A stretch of 64,000 nt of DNA from Gammaproteobacteria bacterium (GTDB taxonomy: Bacteria > Pseudomonadota > Gammaproteobacteria > JAJPIJ01): positions 62,001 through 126,000 of the forward strand of contig JAJVIQ010000001.1 of NCBI GenBank assembly GCA_022071965.1. Reading direction: 5' to 3'. How positions within the stretch are numbered: position 1 is the stretch's first letter; the number at the start of each line of letters is the position of its first letter. The notes beneath the pieces are model-generated. The model was given only the letters and a program-made list of their open reading frames with translations. It did not search any database and was not told where the DNA came from. This document shows positions 4,005 through 45,771 of this stretch, piece by piece. A program made the position numbers and the translations under genes.

Positions 4005-5231
4005 CTACTGGGAGATCAGTTCGTCGCCGATGACCAGCACGGTCGCGGTCTGATTGTAGTGCCCGACGGCGCCGCCCAGCGTAATGCCCTGCTCGCCGAA
4101 GGTGTTGAACCCTATGACCGGCACATCCTCGCCCAGGGTCTCCCTGATGATGCTGGTATCGCACACGTCCATGCGCGTCTTCAGCAGGTGGCGCAGTATA
4201 CAGTTGAAGATGACCACGGCGCCCACCTTTTTCGGGCTGCCGGCGTCGTTGACGGCTTTCTGCAGCGTGCTCCTGAAGCTGGCGATGGCGAAATTGCGGT
4301 CGGTCTGCATGTGGCGGAGGTAGGCGCCTTCGGGGATCTCCGCGAAGAAGGTGAGGCTGCCGTCCTCGCCGTGCTGGGCCACGCTCTTGACCGTGTATTC
4401 CGCGAAAACGTCCGAGGACTTGATGCCGAAGGGATTCTTGGCGAACACCTCGCTATTGAGCTCGTTGATGCCGAGCATCTCCTTGACCACCTCGGTGGCC
4501 GGGCGCCTGTTCAGCTCGTACACGGTGCGGCCCTGTGAACGGGTCACGACCGCGCCCTTGGTACCCGGGAAATACGGATGTCCCATCGCGGTTCCGAGCT
4601 TCAGCCCACTGCTGATGGTCGCCAGAACCGCGGCGTTCTGATAGACCCCATTGCCGAACTGGAAGGTCGTGCTGGCGTTGAAGTCGTGAGCGGTGGAGCC
4701 ACCGACGATCTGCGCCACCGTGCCGGTCTCCTTGATGAGGGCGCGCATGAAGGGCTCCTCCTGCGCCGTGGACCCGTCGGGGATGATGACGTTGACGAAC
4801 GGCTTGAGGCGTGAGGCCTCGGAGGCATTCTTGCCGTCGAGCGCGATGGCCATCAGCGACATGACCGTGGGGTTGGATTTCAGCGACTTGTGCGCCCCGG
4901 CGGCAGCCTGCTCGGCGGCGGCCTTCGGATCGGTAGAAAGGTTCTCGCCCACGCCCACCCCGATGCTCAGATAGGAGCTCTGCAGCGTCATTACCGCGAC
5001 GCTGTCGTTCTGCGGACCCTGCAGGGCGCTGGTGATCTCCCCGCAGGAGGTCCCGCCGATAATCGCGGAATTGCCGACCATCGAGCGGATGGCGTCATAG
5101 CTCTCCTTCGGGTTCTTGCCGAAGGCGCTGAAGGCGATCGTGAGGTCCGGCTTCGGCGTCTTCTGCATCGCCGTCTCGGCGGCCTCGCGTGCGGTCTTTG
5201 CGTGTCCAATGCCAACTCTCAATACAGCCAT
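4005..5231 (-). CDS. FIST domain sensory protein
   Basis: The 408-residue soluble protein matches the FIST N and FIST C architecture: an N-terminal half (about 20-215) with VGNSAIIGGTSCGEI and a C-terminal half (about 225-395) ending in PVIGFNTFGEQG. FIST domains are proposed small-ligand (amino acid) sensors, found with chemotaxis, kinase and cyclic-di-GMP modules. There is no signal peptide or membrane segment. It is the last gene of the minus-strand operon starting at 9903, 50 bp after a roadblock gene, which suggests it supplies ligand input to, or is an effector of, the kinase-GTPase. The ligand cannot be told from sequence. Confidence 0.85.
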   Translation of the reverse strand: MAVLRVGIGHAKTAREAAETAMQKTPKPDLTIAFSAFGKNPKESYDAIRSMVGNSAIIGGTSCGEITSALQGPQNDSVAVMTLQSSYLSIGVGVGENLSTDPKAAAEQAAAGAHKSLKSNPTVMSLMAIALDGKNASEASRLKPFVNVIIPDGSTAQEEPFMRALIKETGTVAQIVGGSTAHDFNASTTFQFGNGVYQNAAVLATISSGLKLGTAMGHPYFPGTKGAVVTRSQGRTVYELNRRPATEVVKEMLGINELNSEVFAKNPFGIKSSDVFAEYTVKSVAQHGEDGSLTFFAEIPEGAYLRHMQTDRNFAIASFRSTLQKAVNDAGSPKKVGAVVIFNCILRHLLKTRMDVCDTSIIRETLGEDVPVIGFNTFGEQGITLGGAVGHYNQTATVLVIGDELISQ

Positions 5232-5281
5232 GGGGGGTCTCCAGATCGATGTTTGGTGCCGGTCTCGTACGAACGACGGAC

Positions 5282-5644
5282 CTACAGCAGCTTGGCGATG
5301 CCCTCGGCGGCGCGCCGGGCGTCGAGGAAGATGAGGCCGAGCTTGGCACTCGGCCGCGCGAGCACGGACAGCACCGCGTCTTCGCCCGCATGGGTCATCA
5401 GGATGTAGCCATCCTTGCCCTTGACCATCACCTGCTCGAGCGCTCCGCAGCCGAGCTCCGCGGCGCTGCGGTCGCCGAGCGTCAGCATCGCGGCGTTCAT
5501 GGCACCGACTCGGTCCTCGTCCATGCTGGCGGGCAGCAGGCTGGCGATCATCAGACCGTCCGTGGAGATCACCGCCGAGGCAGTGATGTCGGCGGAGCTG
5601 CCGTTGAGGTCGCTCAGAATGGAACGGATCATTTCTTCACGCAT
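5282..5644 (-). CDS. Roadblock/LC7 domain protein
   Basis: The 120-residue single-domain protein has the roadblock pattern: helix MIRSILSDLNG, strand ASAVISTDGLMIAS, a long helix (VGAMNAAMLTLGDRSAAEL), then the strand pair QVMVKGKDGYILMTH and AVLSVLARP, and a final helix. Proteins of this family (MglB, CvnB) dimerise and bind small Ras-like GTPases, as activators or exchange factors. The ATG at 5644 has GGAG about 9 bases upstream; the frame is open to 5725. It lies between a second roadblock gene and the FIST gene, and the GTPase domain encoded at 6343-7845 is the obvious partner. Confidence 0.85.
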   Translation of the reverse strand: MREEMIRSILSDLNGSSADITASAVISTDGLMIASLLPASMDEDRVGAMNAAMLTLGDRSAAELGCGALEQVMVKGKDGYILMTHAGEDAVLSVLARPSAKLGLIFLDARRAAEGIAKLL

Positions 5645-5675
5645 ACGATGTGGCTCCGGGTTTCTATTCCAGTGA

Positions 5676-6350
5676 CTATTTCCTGATGGTGCTCGCGCGG
5701 CGCGAGGTGTCGTGTTCACCGGCATATCGGCGCGTGAGCCCCCACACCAGGTGCGCGAAAGCGGTGCGGTGCAGGCATGGCTCGCCGCTCACCACGAGCA
5801 CGAAATGCTGGTTGCCTATGAACAGCGGCCAGAATCCCATGCGGCTGTGACCGGCCGCGTCGACCACGGACCAGGCGGCCGAATCGATACCGAGGTTCTC
5901 GCGGACCAGATCGTCATGGCGCGAGGCCACGACGCCGATGTCCGCGGCCAGGGCGCCCAGCGCCTCGGCGGTCTCGTGGGTGAAGCCGCTGGCGGAGAGG
6001 AAGAATCCCTGCGAATCGGCGAGCAGCGCGCGGCCGTCGACTGCCAGTTCCTTCAGCAGGCCGGGAACGTCGCGTTCCATGTGCGTCTCCGGCGCGGTCT
6101 GCGCGGCGCGCAGCCCCTTGATCCAGCCCACGCTCTGCATCCGGTACAGCAGCTCCGCGGCTTCGTCTTCGTTGTTGGTCTGCGCCCACTGGCAGACCTT
6201 CTCTGCCGACAACGTCGGTGTCAGCGATTGCGCCATCAGCGCGAACAGCAGCGTTCGCGCCGCGGTGGGTTCGCGGCCCGAGGAGGCGTAATAGGCGCCG
6301 GCGGGAGTGACGCCCACGTGGGCGTTGGAAATCAGTTCGTACTCAGACAT
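5676..6350 (-). CDS. Roadblock-like protein with N-terminal helical/winged-helix region
   Basis: The 224-residue protein has two parts. Residues 1-90 are helical (LSAEKVCQWAQTNNEDEAAE then LLYRMQSVGWIKGL), resembling a small winged-helix fold. Residues about 92-210 look like a divergent roadblock domain (ALLADSQGFFLSASGF, HETAEALGALAADIGVVAS, FVLVVSGEPCL). The start overlaps the stop of the upstream kinase-GTPase gene by 8 bp, so translation is probably coupled. With its neighbour it makes two roadblock proteins in one operon, allowing a heterodimer. The domain call is by pattern and is less certain than for the gene at 5282. Confidence 0.65.
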   Translation of the reverse strand: MSEYELISNAHVGVTPAGAYYASSGREPTAARTLLFALMAQSLTPTLSAEKVCQWAQTNNEDEAAELLYRMQSVGWIKGLRAAQTAPETHMERDVPGLLKELAVDGRALLADSQGFFLSASGFTHETAEALGALAADIGVVASRHDDLVRENLGIDSAAWSVVDAAGHSRMGFWPLFIGNQHFVLVVSGEPCLHRTAFAHLVWGLTRRYAGEHDTSRRASTIRK

Positions 6351-7845
6351 GATAGTCCTTTACGCCAGGGTCGATGGAAAAGAGCAATGCCTGTACCAGC
6401 ATCGACACATCACCGCGCCGACGCGCATCGATCTCGAAGATCGGCGCGTTGACCGTGAACCCGCGCTGCCCGCCGCTCAGGTGACGGTGGTAGTCGTCGA
6501 TGTCGGGCTTGCGTGTGGCGCCGGTGAAGTTGACGCCGACGACGACGCGGCTGCGCTGGATCAGCGACTGGAAGGCATTCAGGAAGAAATCCAGATCCTT
6601 CATCGGCTCCTTGCGGGAGTTGTCGACGAGAATCACCAGTCCAAGTGCGCCAGTCTGCAGGATATCCCACATGAAATCGAACCGCTCCTGCCCGGGCGTT
6701 CCGTACAGGTGCACGCGTTCGGAATCCGATAGGCGCATCAGTCCGTAATCCATCGCCACGGTCGTGGTGACCTTGCGGCTGCGGGTCATATCCCGCGCCC
6801 GCGCGTCGGTGTTGACCAGCGGTATGTCGCTGAGCGCCGATATCGCGGTCGTCTTGCCCGCGCCGACCGGTCCGGCGAACACGATCTTGAAGTTGCGGGC
6901 GGCACGCTTCGGAACGTAGGAGAACGTCGTGCTTGCCGTGACGGGCGGTCCCCTGCCTTCGCCGCGCAGGCGGGCGATCACGTCGCCTACTGACTGCGGG
7001 CGGTTCTCGGCGCGGATCTGCATCATCCAGTCGATGATGCGCAGGAAATCATCATGGTACCGGCCGTTGCCCAGCGTGACTGCAGGCACCAGCGGGTCGC
7101 TCTGGTGCTCCTCGGCCGCCCGCTGCCGTTGCGCCGCGTCGACCGGCGGCCCGACGCTGATGCAACGGTATAGCGTGGCGCCCACGGCGTAGAGATCCGA
7201 CCATGGTCCCTGCGGGGCGTCTGGGGAGTGCTGCTCAATCGGGGCGTAGCCGGGCGTGAGCACCTGCACGTCCTCGGAGCTGCTGCTTCCGAACTCCATT
7301 TCCGCGGCCCCGAAATCGATGAGCACCGGTGTGCCGTCATTGCGGATCTGTATGTTCGCGGGCTTGATGTCGCGATGCAGGTATTTCTTTTCGTGGACGA
7401 TGCGCAGCCCTTCCAGCAGGGGCACGAAGATGGCGCGCAACTGCTGTTCGGGGAGTGGCTCCTTTGCCGCGCGCAGCACCTCGCTCAGGCTCTGCCCGCC
7501 CTCGAAGTCCATGACAATGTAAGCGGTGTGGTTGGCCGGGAAGAATCGCGCCACACGCAGGATGTTCGGGTGCCGGAACTGGGCGAGCACCTGCGCCTCC
7601 GCGATGAAGCGCTGCCGGCCCCATTTGTACAGCTCGCTGAATTCCTCCGATTTCAGCAGTACGCTGCCGCTGCCTTTCGAATCGCGGGTGACGAACTCGC
7701 TCGGAAAGAACTCCTTGATGGCCACCGACGTCTGCAAGTGGGTATCCCAGCCCTGGTAGGTGACTCCGAAGTTGCCCTTGCCGAGCACCTTCTCGATTCG
7801 GTATTCCTTCAAGTTGAAACCGACGGGCAGTGCAGAGCCGGTCAT
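6343..7845 (-). CDS. Hanks-type Ser/Thr kinase fused to a COG2229-like small GTPase
   Basis: The 500-residue soluble protein joins two enzymes. Residues 15-295 are a eukaryotic-like kinase with an intact catalytic set: glycine loop LGKGNFGVTY, Lys44 in VAIKE, HRDIKPAN (Asp159, Asn164), DFG at 177-179 and TPGYAPIEQ as the activation/APE segment. Residues 318-495 are a Ras-like GTPase of the MglA/CvnD (COG2229) type: P-loop GPVGAGKTT at 325-333, switch II YGTPGQERF at 381-389. The G4 motif is degraded (VGVNFTGA where NKxD is expected), so guanine specificity is open. It overlaps the roadblock gene downstream by 8 bp. Kinase control of, or by, the attached GTPase is inferred. Confidence 0.9.
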   Translation of the reverse strand: MTGSALPVGFNLKEYRIEKVLGKGNFGVTYQGWDTHLQTSVAIKEFFPSEFVTRDSKGSGSVLLKSEEFSELYKWGRQRFIAEAQVLAQFRHPNILRVARFFPANHTAYIVMDFEGGQSLSEVLRAAKEPLPEQQLRAIFVPLLEGLRIVHEKKYLHRDIKPANIQIRNDGTPVLIDFGAAEMEFGSSSSEDVQVLTPGYAPIEQHSPDAPQGPWSDLYAVGATLYRCISVGPPVDAAQRQRAAEEHQSDPLVPAVTLGNGRYHDDFLRIIDWMMQIRAENRPQSVGDVIARLRGEGRGPPVTASTTFSYVPKRAARNFKIVFAGPVGAGKTTAISALSDIPLVNTDARARDMTRSRKVTTTVAMDYGLMRLSDSERVHLYGTPGQERFDFMWDILQTGALGLVILVDNSRKEPMKDLDFFLNAFQSLIQRSRVVVGVNFTGATRKPDIDDYHRHLSGGQRGFTVNAPIFEIDARRRGDVSMLVQALLFSIDPGVKDYHV

Positions 7846-9150: not shown

Positions 9151-9903
9151 CTATCGGCCCGCTGCGGCACCCTCGAGCAGGGACAGTGTGTCCAGCCAGT
9201 CCTTTTCGACGGCGCTGTCCTTGATATCGATCTTGCTGTACATCGACTGGCAGCCGTCCAGGTCGCGTGCGCGCCGGTAGATCTCCAGCAATTCGCGGTG
9301 CATGTCGCTATCCTGTGCGTGCATGGGCAGGGCCGTCTCGAGCACCCGCCTGGCCTCCTCGACCTGCCCGTTCTCCAGGTATTCCCGGGCCTCGCCCAGC
9401 GGCCCGCGCGCGTCGCTGCGGGCCCCGTTCGTTCGGGCGCCCAGCGTGACCAGCTTGGCGGAGCGTTTCGGCGCGAAGCGCGAGGTGGGCAGATCGAACA
9501 TGCTGGTGACGATCTCGGTCACCGCCAGTTGCGCGCGCAGGCTGCTGACCTGAGGTGGCGACAGTACCGGGGCGACTCGCTGCAGAATATCCCTGCGTAA
9601 TTCCAGACCCTTGGTGCCGAGCACCTGGAAGAGGTCGGCCAGAGAGCGGTAAGTGGCCTGGCGGTTGCCGGCCGCAGCCCACAGCAGCACCCGGCGTACG
9701 TGCGCGAGCAGGTCGCGATTCTTTGCCGTGACGTGAAAACCGAGGTGCTCCGCATAGCGCTGCCGCCAGCCGGTGACCGGCAGTGACGGCAGCAGGCGAG
9801 TGCCCGGGGAGAAAAACGCCGGTTCGAAGGGGACCTCGGCCCAGGGGTCGACATGCTCTGCCCGTGCCTTCGGGCGGATGATCGTCAAGCTGTCGTCATT
9901 CAT
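9151..9903 (-). CDS. TPR-like protein, first gene of the kinase/GTPase operon
   Basis: The 250-residue soluble protein has a conserved-looking middle region (about 60-125, YRSLADLFQVLGTKGLELRR) and a C-terminal helical repeat region (165-235: AREYLENGQVEEARRVLETA, then HRELLEIYRRARDLDGC) that resembles the FimV/TPR C-terminal module. There is no signal peptide. It starts the minus-strand operon and is 15 bp before the receiver-like gene. A binding or scaffold role is inferred from the TPR-like helices only. Confidence 0.6.
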   Translation of the reverse strand: MNDDSLTIIRPKARAEHVDPWAEVPFEPAFFSPGTRLLPSLPVTGWRQRYAEHLGFHVTAKNRDLLAHVRRVLLWAAAGNRQATYRSLADLFQVLGTKGLELRRDILQRVAPVLSPPQVSSLRAQLAVTEIVTSMFDLPTSRFAPKRSAKLVTLGARTNGARSDARGPLGEAREYLENGQVEEARRVLETALPMHAQDSDMHRELLEIYRRARDLDGCQSMYSKIDIKDSAVEKDWLDTLSLLEGAAAGR

Positions 9904-39796: not shown

Positions 39797-39933
39797 TCCG
39801 GGGTGCCGCAGGGGGCCTGGCACAGCGCGGTGCTATACTGGCATCCCCGCTGTCATGCTGCGGTCCGTGTCGTCCTGGCATATGCCGGCGGCGGGACTTG
39901 ACACCAGGCCGACCCGATATCAGCTTTCGAGAC

Positions 39934-41337
39934 ATGGCTGCCCGTACGCTATACGACAAACTGTGGGATGCGCACGTCGTGCGCCACTTCGATGACGGAT
40001 CGTCGCTCATCTACATCGATCGCCATCTGGTGCACGAGGTGACCTCGCCTCAGGCCTTCGAGGGCTTGAGACTCGCAGGACGCAGGCCATGGCGCAAGGA
40101 TGCCAATCTCGCCGTCTTCGATCACAACGTTCCGACCGATGATCAGAGCCGCATCGACGACCCGATCTCGCGGCAGCAGCTGGAGACGCTGGAGCAGAAC
40201 GTCGTCGCCTGGCAGATCCCGAATTTCCGCATTCGCGATCCCCGCAACGGCATCGTGCACGTGGTCGGGCCGGAGCAGGGCGCTTCGCTGCCGGGCATGA
40301 CGATCGTGTGCGGCGACTCGCACACCTCGACCAACGGCGCGCTTGGCGCCCTGGCCTTCGGGATCGGAACCTCGGAGGTCGAACACGTGCTGGCGACGCA
40401 GACACTGGTGCTGCGCAAGGCCAGGAACATGCTGATCGACGTCCACGGTGCCCTGCCGCCGGGCGTGACCGCCAAGGACATCATCCTCGCCATCATCGGC
40501 AGGATCGGGACCGCCGGCGGCACCGGATACACGATCGAGTACGCGGGCGAGACCGTGCGCGCGATGTCTGTCGAGGAGCGCATGACCATGTGCAACATGG
40601 CCATCGAGGCGGGCGCGCGCGCCGGCCTCGTCGCCGTTGACGAGAAGACCATCGGGTACGTGCACGGGCGTCCAAGTTCGCCGCGGGGCCCGATGTGGGA
40701 GAAGGCCGTCGAGGCGTGGCGCGATCTGCATTCCGACACCGGCGCCAGATTCGACGCCGTGGTGGAGATCGACGCGGGGTCGCTGAAGCCGCAGGTGACG
40801 TGGGGCACGTCCCCGGAGATGGTCATTGCTGTGGACGCCTGCGTGCCGGATCCGGCCGCCGAAGCCGATCCGGTCAGAGCCGATGGCATGCGCCGAGCAA
40901 TGGAATACATGGGCCTGGCGCCCGGCACCCCGATCACCGCGATCGCCATCGACAAGGTTTTCATCGGATCCTGCACCAATTCCCGCCTGAGCGATCTGCG
41001 AGCGGCTGCCGCGGTGGTGCGCGGGCGCATGGTCGCATCCAGCGTAAAACAGGCGCTGGTCGTACCCGGTTCCGGGCTGGTCAAGCAACAGGCGGAGGCC
41101 GAGGGGCTGGACCGGGTCTTCCGCGACGCCGGCTTCGAATGGCGCGAGCCAGGCTGCTCCATGTGCCTGGGCATGAATCCCGACCGGCTTTCACCGGGCG
41201 AGCGCTGCGCATCGACTTCGAACCGGAATTTCGAGGGGCGCCAGGGGCCGCGGGGCCGTACGCACCTCGTCAGCCCGGCCATGGCGGCGGCGGCGGCAAT
41301 CGCGGGACATTTCACCGACGTGCGCGAATTGTCCTGA
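39934..41337 (+). CDS. leuC: 3-isopropylmalate dehydratase large subunit
   Basis: The 467-residue aconitase-family subunit interconverts 2- and 3-isopropylmalate in leucine synthesis. Signatures are the start [37 protein letters not shown] and cluster cysteines in [12 protein letters not shown] and [10 protein letters not shown]. The ATG at 39934 gives the family length. Its partner leuD starts 3.8 kb downstream, with two kinase-like genes between, an unusual split. Confidence 0.97.
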
Positions 41338-41646: not shown

Positions 41647-42540
41647 ATGAACAGGCCGCGTCGCCGCCATCCGGGCGCGCGGGCCGAGGTCGACCCGCCG
41701 CCAGTCGTATACCTTTCATCCGGCCGTCGCCTGGCGAGGTACACCGTGCTGGACGTCGTCCACTACGACGGCTTCGTGGCCACATATTGCGCGCGCCGCG
41801 TGCGGCACGGCAGCAATGTGCTGTTGCGGGAATACTTCCCCGCGGCCTGTGCCGCCAGGAACGACGATGGATCGATCGGGCCGTCGGCCCCGGAGCAGGA
41901 GGCCGAGTATGCGCGTGGACTGGAGCGATTCCTGAAGCTCGCCAGCAGGCTCGCCGGGGTCCGGCACGCCAACGTCGCTGAGGTTGCCGATGTAGTGGCG
42001 CTCAATGGCACGGGCTATCTGGTGACCGCGGAGAGCGGCACGGAAACCGTCGCGCAGCGTTTTGCGGACCGACAGCAAGTCCCGGCGGATGAAGTGCTCG
42101 CCTTGGCACTCGAGCTGTTGGGCGGTCTGGAAATGCTGCACCTCGCCGGAATGGTGCATGGCGATATCGCGGAGGGCAGTGTCCGGTTCAAGCGGGGAGT
42201 TCCGCAGCTCGTTCACTCACCGGCCGCTCTGCTCACCAACTTTCGGAAGATGGCCGTGATCGTGCCATCCATCGATCCGCGGCTCGATCCGGCGACCGCG
42301 GATCCCGACTGCACACAGGATTTGTACGAATTCGGTCTGTTGTTGCATCGCCTGGCGAAAGGCAAGTCCGCGCGCCACGAAACCGTGCTTGACGATCCGC
42401 GCAGCGCCCTGATGCGCGCCGTGCTGCGGGTGATCGAGCGCGCGTTCTCAGGTCCTCGGGAATTCCGGCCGCGCAGTGCCGGGGAATGGCGTCGGGAGTT
42501 CGAGATGATCCGCGAGTTCCCGGGGGCTGAAGCGTCCTAG
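41647..42540 (+). CDS. Pseudokinase of the Hanks Ser/Thr kinase family
   Basis: The 297-residue protein aligns along its length with the kinase encoded next to it but has lost every catalytic signature. The Lys of AIKE is Arg61 (VLLREYFP), HRD is HGD at 171-173, the catalytic-loop Asn is Ser178 (HGDIAEGS), and DFG is HSP at 190-192. The glycine loop is also lost (VVHYDGFVATY). No membrane segment is seen. ATP phosphotransfer is unlikely; a binding or regulatory role towards the neighbouring kinase is inferred. It begins the two-gene insertion between leuC and leuD. Confidence 0.85.
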   Translation: MNRPRRRHPGARAEVDPPPVVYLSSGRRLARYTVLDVVHYDGFVATYCARRVRHGSNVLLREYFPAACAARNDDGSIGPSAPEQEAEYARGLERFLKLASRLAGVRHANVAEVADVVALNGTGYLVTAESGTETVAQRFADRQQVPADEVLALALELLGGLEMLHLAGMVHGDIAEGSVRFKRGVPQLVHSPAALLTNFRKMAVIVPSIDPRLDPATADPDCTQDLYEFGLLLHRLAKGKSARHETVLDDPRSALMRAVLRVIERAFSGPREFRPRSAGEWRREFEMIREFPGAEAS

Positions 42541-42794
42541 GCCGGCACGCGCGGCAGCTTGGGGACGCTGGACACCGCATCGGTATCGGGGCACCGCCGC
42601 AGCGACACGCCGGCGGCATATCTGTGTGTGACCGCCCGCATTCAGCGCATGTAAATCTGGCGGGCGTAAATTCCTCATGGCAGGCTGAAATTTGGATCCT
42701 CGTGCCCAGCACCGCATCCGCCCGATTCGGCTGGGGGTTTGATACGCCGCTGCGCCTCCTTCGGCCAAAGACCAAAGACAGGAGTTTCTATCTC

Positions 42795-45002
42795 GTGAGC
42801 CCCCGCGCCCTGCCTCCCGGTACAACGCTCGGCCGTTATCGGGTCGTGTCCCTGCTCGGGCAGGGACCGTTCGGTCTGACGTACCTGGCCAGCGACCCGG
42901 CGTCCGGCGCAATGTTCGCCATCAAGGAATATCTGCCCGCCGCCTATGCACTGCGAAACCCGGACCGCTCGGTATCCCCGATCTCGGATTTCGAGGAGGA
43001 CGACTTCGAGTTCGGCATGGAGCGCTTCCGCGCCGATGCGCAGGCGCTGCAGCGGACCGTGCATCCATGCCTCGTCGGGGTTCGGGACGTTTTCGATGCC
43101 AATGGCACCGTGTGCATGGTCATGTCCTACGAGGACGGTCCGTCGCTGGCGGAGGTCTCGAACCGCGAGCCGACCCTGACGGAGCGGGAACTGCTGACTA
43201 TCGCCGTGTCGTTGATTGACGCATTCAAGACGCTGCACGGCGCCGGACTCATTCACCGCGACGTCAAGGAGGCGCATATCAAGTTGCGCCGCGACCGTAC
43301 CCCAATCCTGCTTGATTTCGGCGCCGCGCGCATCGGACTGCTTCGACGACGGCTTGCCATCGGAAACGGCGACCCCGGGCTCGATCCATCGAAGCTCGAC
43401 GGCTCGGCCGGTCCATGGACCGACATACACGCGCTGGCAGCCATGCTGTTCAGGATCGCCAAGCGGCTGGGCGCCTCCTGTTCGCCGCGGGTGATTGACG
43501 CCATACGCGCGGGAATCTCGGTGCAGCCGGCGGATGTCGCGCCATTGACGGCGCAATGGTCCGAGCGGATCGACGCGCTGCTGCGGGAGTTGCCCGTCCC
43601 CGAGTGGCCGGCTGCGGCCGCGCCGCCCGAGGGATCATGTGCCGGGCCGGTGCCGGCTGTGCCGGCCCAGGACAGGGGAACCTGCGCCGCAGCCGTAGAT
43701 GCGGATACAGACACCTTCGAAATCCGCGCCCGGCAGGGCGAGGAGGCGCCCGCGCGCGTGGAGGAGGCAGAAACGGCACCCGAGCCGGCCGCACAGCCGT
43801 TTCGAGAGGCGTCAGTGGCGCATGCCGAATCCGCTGCAGCGCAGTCGACTGATTGCGATGGCGCGTACTCGTTCGACCGCAACGATACCGAGACCGCGAG
43901 TGACTTCGCTGAATCCGACGCCATGCCCGAGCCGTCGCGTGCGGAGATTGCGCTCGCGATCGAGCGGCCGCACCTGCCTGGGTGTCCATCCCCGTCCGCC
44001 ACCCATTCCCCCGAACCGATCGAAGGAGCGGGCAAGACGTCGGCGCCGGCCAGCCAGGATACTCTCGCCTCGGCGTCTGCGCGTCTTCCAGATTCGCGAC
44101 CGCAGGCATTCATGGTGCCACGGGCGTCTGCGGCCTCCGCCGATCCCGAGGCGATACTTGACCTGGATCGGCTGACGAGGTGGGTCGCGGCTGCCGCGGT
44201 CGTTGCAGTCGTTTTAGGTATCGTGATGTGGAGCCTGAACGCGCGCACGCCCGTGCCGTCGACCGCGGCGGTTCGGCCTGCACCGCCAGCTGCCCCCACG
44301 ATCGACGCCCCTGGGCGGCCCACCCGCCCGGCGCGTGATACCGTGGTGGCCGCAACGCCGCCGACGGCCGCCCTGGAACAGTCCGCGCCGCGTGACACAT
44401 CGTCGCCCGAGACGCCAGCCTCGACGACCGCCGCCATGACCATTCCGCTGCCGCCGGATTTCCCCGCGGACACCAATGCGGGATCGATCGTCGCGGGCGG
44501 CGCCGCCATGACCATTCCACCGCGGCCAGAACCCCCCGTGAACGCAGAGATTGATGGCCTGTTGGCCGAGGCGGCGAGGGATCTGGCGGCGTTGCGGCTG
44601 ACCACCCCGCGTGGCAGCAACGCGGTGGAGAAATACGAGGCCGTACTCGCACTCGACCCGGGCAATGACGCGGCACGGCAGGGCCTGAATGCCGTGAGCG
44701 ATCGATACGTGGATCTGGCAACCACCGCGCTTGCCCGCGGACAGCTCGCCGCTGCGCGCCGCTATCTGGAGCTTGCTCAGTCGATTGCGCCGGACAATGC
44801 CAAGGCTCAGTCGCTGCATCGTGAACTGGAGCTCCGCCAGCAACAGCCAGCACGCCGGAGCGCGGAGGAGACCGTCGCAGCCGAATGGCGTGGCGGGCTG
44901 TACGATCGGGTGCAGAGCCTCCTCGAGCGCAACCAGGCTCGCCCGCCGCGGCCGCCCAGCCGGGCCGAACAGATCCCGGATCGCCTGGGCGGCCAGCGCT
45001 AG
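42795..45002 (+). CDS. Membrane Hanks-type kinase-like protein with C-terminal TPR-like region
   Basis: The 735-residue protein has a kinase domain at 12-265: glycine loop [10 protein letters not shown], Lys44 in AIKE, HRD at 154-156, DFG at 174-176. But the catalytic-loop Asn is His161 (HRDVKEAH), and the activation segment lacks a TPGYxPPE-type motif, so activity is doubtful. A long Ala/Pro/Glu-rich region precedes one membrane helix (about 463-481). Beyond it lies a Pro/Thr-rich stretch and helices like TPR repeats (about 590-690: [20 protein letters not shown]). The GTG at 42795 has AGGAG about 10 bases upstream. The gap from 42541 to 42794 shows no gene. Confidence 0.87.
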
Positions 45003-45120
45003 GCGTTTCGAATTCGCGCGCCGCGCTTGCAGCGCGGCCCGGCATTCGGTAGAAAGGGAATCCCCGATTCACACGCGCCGTGTCCGCCCGCGACCCGGCG
45101 CTCGGACGCCGGAGCTTCCT

Positions 45121-45771
45121 GTGCAACCCATCAGGCAAATCGAGGGCATCGTCGCGCCCCTGGACCGACCCAACGTAGACACCGATCAGATCATTCCCAA
45201 GCAGTTTCTGAAGTCAATCGGGCGTACCGGCTTCGGGCCCTATCTGTTCGACGAGTGGCGCTATCTCGATCGCGGCGAATGGGGCCAGGACTGCAGCAAG
45301 CGGCCGTTGAACGGGGATTTCGTGCTGAATCAGCCGCGGTACCGCGGCACGCGCGTTCTGCTCGCCCGCGAAAATTTCGGTTGCGGCTCCTCGCGCGAGC
45401 ACGCAGCGTGGGCGATGCTCGACTTCGGCATTCAGTGCGTCATCGCGCCGAGTTTCGCCGACATCTTCTTCAGCAATTGCAGCAAGAACGGCCTCCTGGC
45501 CGTGACGCTGCCGGCAGGGCAGGTCGACAGCCTGTTCAGGGAGGTGTTCGCGCAGCCGCGCTATGTGTTGAAGGTCGATCTCCCGGCGCAAACCGTCACC
45601 ACCCCATCGGGAGTCATGCATGGATTCGAGTTTCCGCCGAGCCTCAAGCACCGGTTGGTCGAAGGGCTCGACGAGATCGGTGTGACGCTGCAGTATGCGG
45701 AGGATATCCGCGCCTACGAGGCGCGCGGCGCCTCGGAGGCGCCGTGGCTGCATCCGCAGACGCCGCCATAG
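45121..45771 (+). CDS. leuD: 3-isopropylmalate dehydratase small subunit
   Basis: The 216-residue swivel-domain subunit pairs with LeuC. Signatures are [47 protein letters not shown] and [15 protein letters not shown]. The start is GTG at 45121; the larger open frame upstream runs antisense-like through the kinase gene and is ignored. It ends 19 bp before the convergent LysR gene. Supply of leuD message may depend on a promoter inside the kinase insertion. Confidence 0.96.

Follow-up and report, generated by a model that had tools for sequence, protein, structure and literature searches.

A 500-residue protein encoded in the 64,000-nucleotide stretch of gammaproteobacterial DNA analysed here (the window) carries a Hanks-type Ser/Thr kinase and an MglA-family (COG2229) GTPase on a single chain, within an operon that resembles the Group 3 MglA systems. 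The explanation that we favour overall, though tentatively and at a little short of even confidence, is that this protein would be a kinase with a tethered MglA switch, which cycles with MglB-type partners and has been freed from strict guanine recognition. The features of the locus are collected in Table 1.

Table 1. Genes, domains and motifs of the kinase-MglA fusion locus, in window coordinates.
Feature	Position	Strand	Basis
TPR protein, 250 aa, first gene of the operon	9151..9903	(-)	weak TPR matches; orthologue in most loci
Candidate receiver-like/winged-helix-like protein, 422 aa	7867..9135	(-)	orthologue 5' of the GTPase in nearly all loci
Kinase-MglA fusion, 500 aa	6343..7845	(-)	open reading frame, Pfam matches, 12 other distinct full-length fusions
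Hanks-type kinase domain, PpkA-like, residues 15-283	6997..7803	(-)	PF00069, PpkA matches, motif table
MglA/COG2229 GTPase domain, residues about 318-489	6379..6894	(-)	ATP_bind_1, identity to unfused relatives
G1 P-loop GPVGAGKTT, from residue 325	6847..6873	(-)	conserved, 11 aligned fusions
G2 TTVAMD	6748..6765	(-)	conserved, 11 aligned fusions
G3 GTPGQ, residues 382-386	6688..6702	(-)	Gln, Gly and Pro invariant, 11 aligned fusions
G4 NFTG, residues 439-442, replacing T[QR]MD	6520..6531	(-)	gapless column
G5 DAR, residues 473-475	6421..6429	(-)	invariant, 11 aligned fusions
First MglB-type roadblock protein, 224 aa	5676..6350	(-)	start overlaps the fusion stop by 8 bases
Second MglB-type roadblock protein, 120 aa	5282..5644	(-)	Robl_LC7 E 1.5e-14; Asp-Gly pair invariant
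FIST sensor-type protein, 408 aa	4005..5231	(-)	FIST E 2e-31, FIST_C E 2e-25

A sequence-only reading of this DNA had proposed the two-domain chain, and it is upheld both by Pfam and by recurrence in relatives. Pkinase (PF00069) matches residues 15-283 with an E-value of 2.6e-35 and ATP_bind_1 matches residues 324-428 with an E-value of 2.7e-12, and the plus strand across the gene (6343-7845) is interrupted by stops. The AlphaFold2 model of the fusion has a mean pLDDT of 84 and a pTM of 0.67, indicating that the domains are modelled fairly well and that their placement relative to each other is unreliable. Because the best 50 Foldseek matches to the whole fusion are kinases only, the GTPase fold is judged from sequence alone. 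An assembly chimera or a sequencing error could in principle have produced the fusion or its unusual NFTG motif, and a local assembly error was one of the outcomes that the sequence-only reading had named as its own refutation. We found nothing in favour of such an artefact. A sister species has the same fusion and the same NFTG, at 92% identity and a dS of about 0.3, and 11 more fusions are known, one of them from a 3-contig genome. With 13 distinct fusion proteins across 11 genomes, assembly error is ruled out and we give the artefact practically no weight. Comparison of the two nearest species (window versus locus L019) shows purifying selection on the kinase (dN/dS 0.113) and on the GTPase (0.125); the value is 0.34 for the linker and 0.00 for the second roadblock protein. 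The interdomain linker, at about residues 297-317 of the window protein, contains in many fusions a stretch rich in Thr that carries a conserved FxYxPR-like element and is only a candidate phosphorylation region.

The kinase half has a full catalytic set, including AIKEFF (beta-3 Lys), FIAEAQ (alpha-C Glu), HRDIKPAN and DFGAA, and the residues picked out by the sequence-only reading are in place (Lys44, Asp159, Asn164 and DFG from residue 177). Catalytic residues are intact in 13/13 fusions, with HLD in place of HRD in L028. PpkA is a kinase linked to type VI secretion. It is the nearest solved kinase structure by sequence (5hnv; phmmer E 2e-60, next best 6e-21) and also the nearest fold (Foldseek rank 1, E 6e-30). 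The likeness lies in kinase sequence and fold; the protein described here differs in its GTPase tail, and no type VI secretion component was found among the 7 proteins scanned at the fusion locus. Elsewhere in the window, two kinase-like genes (41647-45002, plus strand) lie between leuC (39898-41337) and leuD (ORF 44731-45771), as named from aconitase-family matches and gene order. One is a pseudokinase, in which the beta-3 Lys is Arg, HRD is HGD and DFG is missing, and the other encodes a kinase-TPR protein whose P+1 loop is degenerate.

The nucleotide-binding motifs of the GTPase half are, apart from G4, well preserved. G1, the G2 Thr, the G3 Gln and the G5 DAR are unchanged or nearly so in the 11 aligned fusions, and the P-loop and switch II noted by the sequence-only reading are present, from residues 325 and 382. 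Identity of the domain to unfused relatives is mostly 54-62%. Wuichet and Sogaard-Andersen (PMC4316618) described Group 3 MglA/MglB systems from beta- and gammaproteobacteria, and the window system shares with them GTPGQ at G3, DAR at G5, a Thr instead of an Arg beside the G2 Thr (TTVAMD), a Lys-less G4, an upstream candidate for the receiver-like/winged-helix-like protein, and one or two MglB genes at most 4 genes away, here two roadblock proteins directly downstream. It differs in that the GTPase is fused to a kinase within a 500-aa protein, rather than being a small single-domain protein of at most 240 aa; in the loss of the terminal G4 Asp of unfused relatives; and in the attached FIST gene. 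By most features tested, the fusion system would belong with Group 3 MglA, single-domain size and the G4 Asp being the exceptions; the relatives compared were Methylococcales, Thiothrix and others, with the published Neisseria and Xanthomonas Group 3 reference sequences left out.

The fusion gene is the third in a minus-strand run of six, which encodes a TPR protein, the 422-aa protein, the fusion, the 224-aa protein, a roadblock protein and a FIST protein, and which on its gene content would be a Group 3-type MglA system (TPR, receiver/winged-helix-like protein, GTPase and two MglB-type roadblock proteins) with FIST added. The 422-aa protein fits the receiver-like/winged-helix-like protein described beside Group 3 MglA (PMC4316618), as far as its sequence can indicate. 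D50 and K89-P90 near the N-terminus are invariant in its family, which also has a conserved C-terminal block with WPN; Pfam gave no family match for 22 of these proteins. In other lineages a single polypeptide that lacks a kinase joins the receiver-like protein directly to the GTPase (L165 4137-5675, plus strand; L082 about 4756-6630, plus strand), which indicates that the two are functionally linked; this second kind of fusion is clear in L129/L165 and is read from an open frame in L082. We also asked whether a Ser/Thr-rich linker in this receiver-like protein is a kinase substrate peculiar to the fusions, an idea rejected because there was no difference (0.19 vs 0.18).

Both proteins encoded directly downstream of the fusion are of the MglB type. 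The 224-aa protein has no Pfam match above cut-off, Robl_LC7 is weak in 7/19 members of its family, and a profile comparison between it and the 120-aa roadblock protein gave no signal. A structural search showed it to be MglB-like: MglB provides the best Foldseek matches (E 1.8e-4) to its AlphaFold2 model (pLDDT 86). Its family adjoins most of the GTPases surveyed. Only the window, the sister species and L023/L011 have a FIST gene next to the cassette; the window's FIST protein has a distant similarity, below cut-off, to the NO sensor NosP, and may be a signal input. Most unfused relatives (Methylococcales, Thiothrix, Halothiobacillus) have a kinase-free version of the cassette with the gene order unchanged. 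This setting, a Group 3-type operon that supplies two MglB-type partners, narrows down the mechanism further than the fusion does by itself.

How often did the fusion arise? A scan of 84,980 genomes returned ten full-length fusions (L019-L028), followed by a sharp drop to kinase-only or GTPase-only matches; its query patterns were derived from the window protein, so that distant fusions may be missed. Genome sampling gave two further fusions (L136/L164 and L130/L163), for a total, with the window protein, of 13, two genomes having two each. In a GTPase tree calculated with the G4 columns excluded and with genome G136 (L130/L163) left out, the 11 fusions then known group together with two tandem GTPase duplicates in one clade (99/98), and all 13 fusion kinases likewise form one clade in the kinase tree (92/88). 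A single fusion event is the simplest reading of one clade in both trees, which points to a single and old origin of the kinase-GTPase fusion. In L026 (1630-2157) and L027 (7448-7990), a second GTPase gene overlaps the fusion and directly follows it; these genes have long branches and a G4 of VSFMD or VNFHG.

The G4 motif is where the fusions depart from their relatives. VNFTG does occupy the expected NKxD site, from residue 438, as the sequence-only reading stated. NKxD itself is not the local norm, because close unfused relatives with the same cassette read T[QR]MD, or more broadly T[QRKH]MD. That reading had also allowed for a proper G4 elsewhere in the domain; this is rejected, since NFTG falls into the G4 column of an alignment with about 100 relatives, a column free of gaps, and leaves no better candidate. 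At the fourth position, 90 close unfused relatives have Asp in 87 cases, Glu in 2 and Asn in 1, and the 11 aligned fusions have Asp in 3 and Gly, Thr, Ala and Glu in 2 each. Beyond the alignment, L136 has Ala and L163 has Asp (THTD), so the Asp is missing from 9/13 fusions. The first two positions are N-F in 9/11 aligned fusions and T-R in the remaining 2, and two fusions read NFME. A clade of all NF-type fusions is not rejected (p-AU 0.79), the tree itself leaving this grouping unresolved.

These counts bear on two suggestions of the sequence-only reading. It had asked whether NFTG is a subfamily feature: an altered G4 does mark the fused subfamily, but the key fourth residue is variable. It had also raised an altered nucleotide specificity, which in that form is not supported, as the Asp site is G, T, A, E or D among the fusions. 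Such varied replacements look more like relaxed constraint than like one particular new specificity, as judged from 13 related and non-independent proteins; the GTPase tree requires only about 4 changes of Asp state. By comparison, the changes of T to N and of Q/R to F, common to 9/11 fusions, look like selection for something and not like pure decay. Fusion alone does not cause loss of the Asp, because some fusions keep TRMD. Four unfused GTPase paralogues (L138, L140, L141 and L142) have a strongly altered G4 (VGRLP, VGRLV or VGRME), so fusion is not the sole route to G4 variation.

One member of the family has lost much more than the G4 Asp. In the fusion of genome G136 (L163 7862-9310, minus strand), the P-loop position reads GTEGAGKRS, the G2 and G3 motifs are gone and the G4 THTD is kept; the kinase is intact with all its residues, and the upstream 422-aa receiver-like protein is retained. 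A search of this genome (98% complete) for MglB-type proteins of both families found none. Since G136 lost G1-G3 and the MglBs yet kept the kinase, the kinase is separable from the GTPase cycle, and since THTD was kept while G1-G3 were lost, decay of G4 and decay of G1-G3 are not one series of steps. The coincidence of GTPase-cycle loss with MglB loss is suggestive, in a single genome. The window retains G1-G3 and both MglBs, and its predicted GTPase therefore most likely still cycles.

Established here are the architecture, its single origin, the catalytic motifs, the conservation of the partners, the variable G4 Asp and purifying selection. In the mechanism that we propose, a PpkA-like Ser/Thr kinase would have gained, in a single ancient event, the MglA GTPase of a Group 3-type operon at its C-terminus. 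An active kinase would then be the catalytic output that has been conserved. The GTPase domain probably retains the ability to bind and hydrolyse a nucleoside triphosphate, and the two MglB-type proteins would be its putative GAP, exchange factor or regulator. This domain could be a docking switch, dependent on nucleotide, by which the kinase reaches its targets, for which the MglBs or the receiver/winged-helix-like protein are candidates, or it could be a gate on the kinase. Control may run from kinase to switch or from switch to kinase; autophosphorylation in cis is one option. After tethering, selection for guanine recognition may have weakened, allowing the G4 Asp to drift, and the window domain would probably bind GTP with reduced base selectivity.

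Other accounts of the G4 change have to be weighed against this tethered and relaxed switch. The domain might be an ordinary guanine switch in which the G5 DAR and main-chain contacts suffice and loss of the Asp has little effect. Group 2 and Group 3 MglA already deviate at G4 and the Group 2 protein CvnD9 is still GTPase-active (PMC4316618), and the Arg of DAR, invariant in the aligned fusions, has been suggested to make up for the absent Lys (PMC4316618). On the other hand, the near-constant Asp of the unfused relatives (87/90) shows that this residue matters in the family, and a change of the Ras Asp to Asn alters specificity (as cited in PMC7952092), so we regard an unaffected guanine switch as rather unlikely. 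Less likely again is a switch to another nucleotide, most probably ATP, which would give both domains one ATP pool. There are precedents, in that SpoIVA, without NKxD, became an ATPase (PMC7952092) and YchF/Ola1 has NxxE and an altered specificity (PMC8779481); the two NFME fusions and the N and F common to 9/11 aligned fusions would fit. However, selection for a new specificity should have fixed the fourth G4 residue, which instead varies within the clade (G, T, A, E, D), and G5 remains DAR without an SxE-like change. We attach the same low probability to a version in which the switch reads ATP or any purine triphosphate, kinase and switch share a nucleotide pool and the MglBs regulate a non-guanine switch.

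At the other extreme, the GTPase domain could be a non-cycling scaffold that only docks the kinase onto its roadblock and receiver-like partners. In its favour, the G136 fusion has a destroyed G1-G3, but in this sole case of G1-G3 loss the MglBs are missing too. The window domain has an intact P-loop, G2 Thr and G3 Gln, a dN/dS of 0.125 and both MglBs; loss of phosphate-binding or catalytic motifs, by which pseudo-GTPases are recognised, is found only in L163. Thus, we think it improbable that the window protein is a pseudo-GTPase, and continue to favour a relaxed switch that cycles with its MglBs.

Coupling of kinases to MglA in trans is already known. In Myxococcus, the protein kinase MasK binds and genetically interacts with the MglA GTPase (PMC3546991), but there the two are separate proteins and MglA is of Group 1. 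The actinobacterial conservons CvnA-D similarly encode, in one operon, a kinase together with a roadblock protein and a GTPase of the MglA family (PMC13343842, PMC4316618), but their kinase is separate and histidine kinase-like, whereas here a Hanks kinase is on the same chain; for Cvn8 the kinase target is still unidentified (PMC13343842). SpoIVA and YchF/Ola1 are, like the domain described here, GTPase-class P-loop proteins with an altered G4, and in them this change accompanies a reported new base preference (PMC7952092, PMC8779481); in the fusions the fourth residue varies from one family member to another. The literature searched yielded no account of a kinase-MglA fusion, an absence that is not proof.

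In conservon-like operons, where a kinase is paired with a switch of the MglA type, the coupling between the two is a standing question. The covalent fusion sets the pairing of kinase and switch at 1:1, making their coupling directly testable. The family also forms a natural series, from fusions with a TRMD G4, through those with a degraded G4 that keep G1-G3 and the MglBs, to a destroyed G domain without MglBs, and this series can reveal what a small GTPase tethered to a kinase needs, and whether loss of the Asp alters the nucleotide used.
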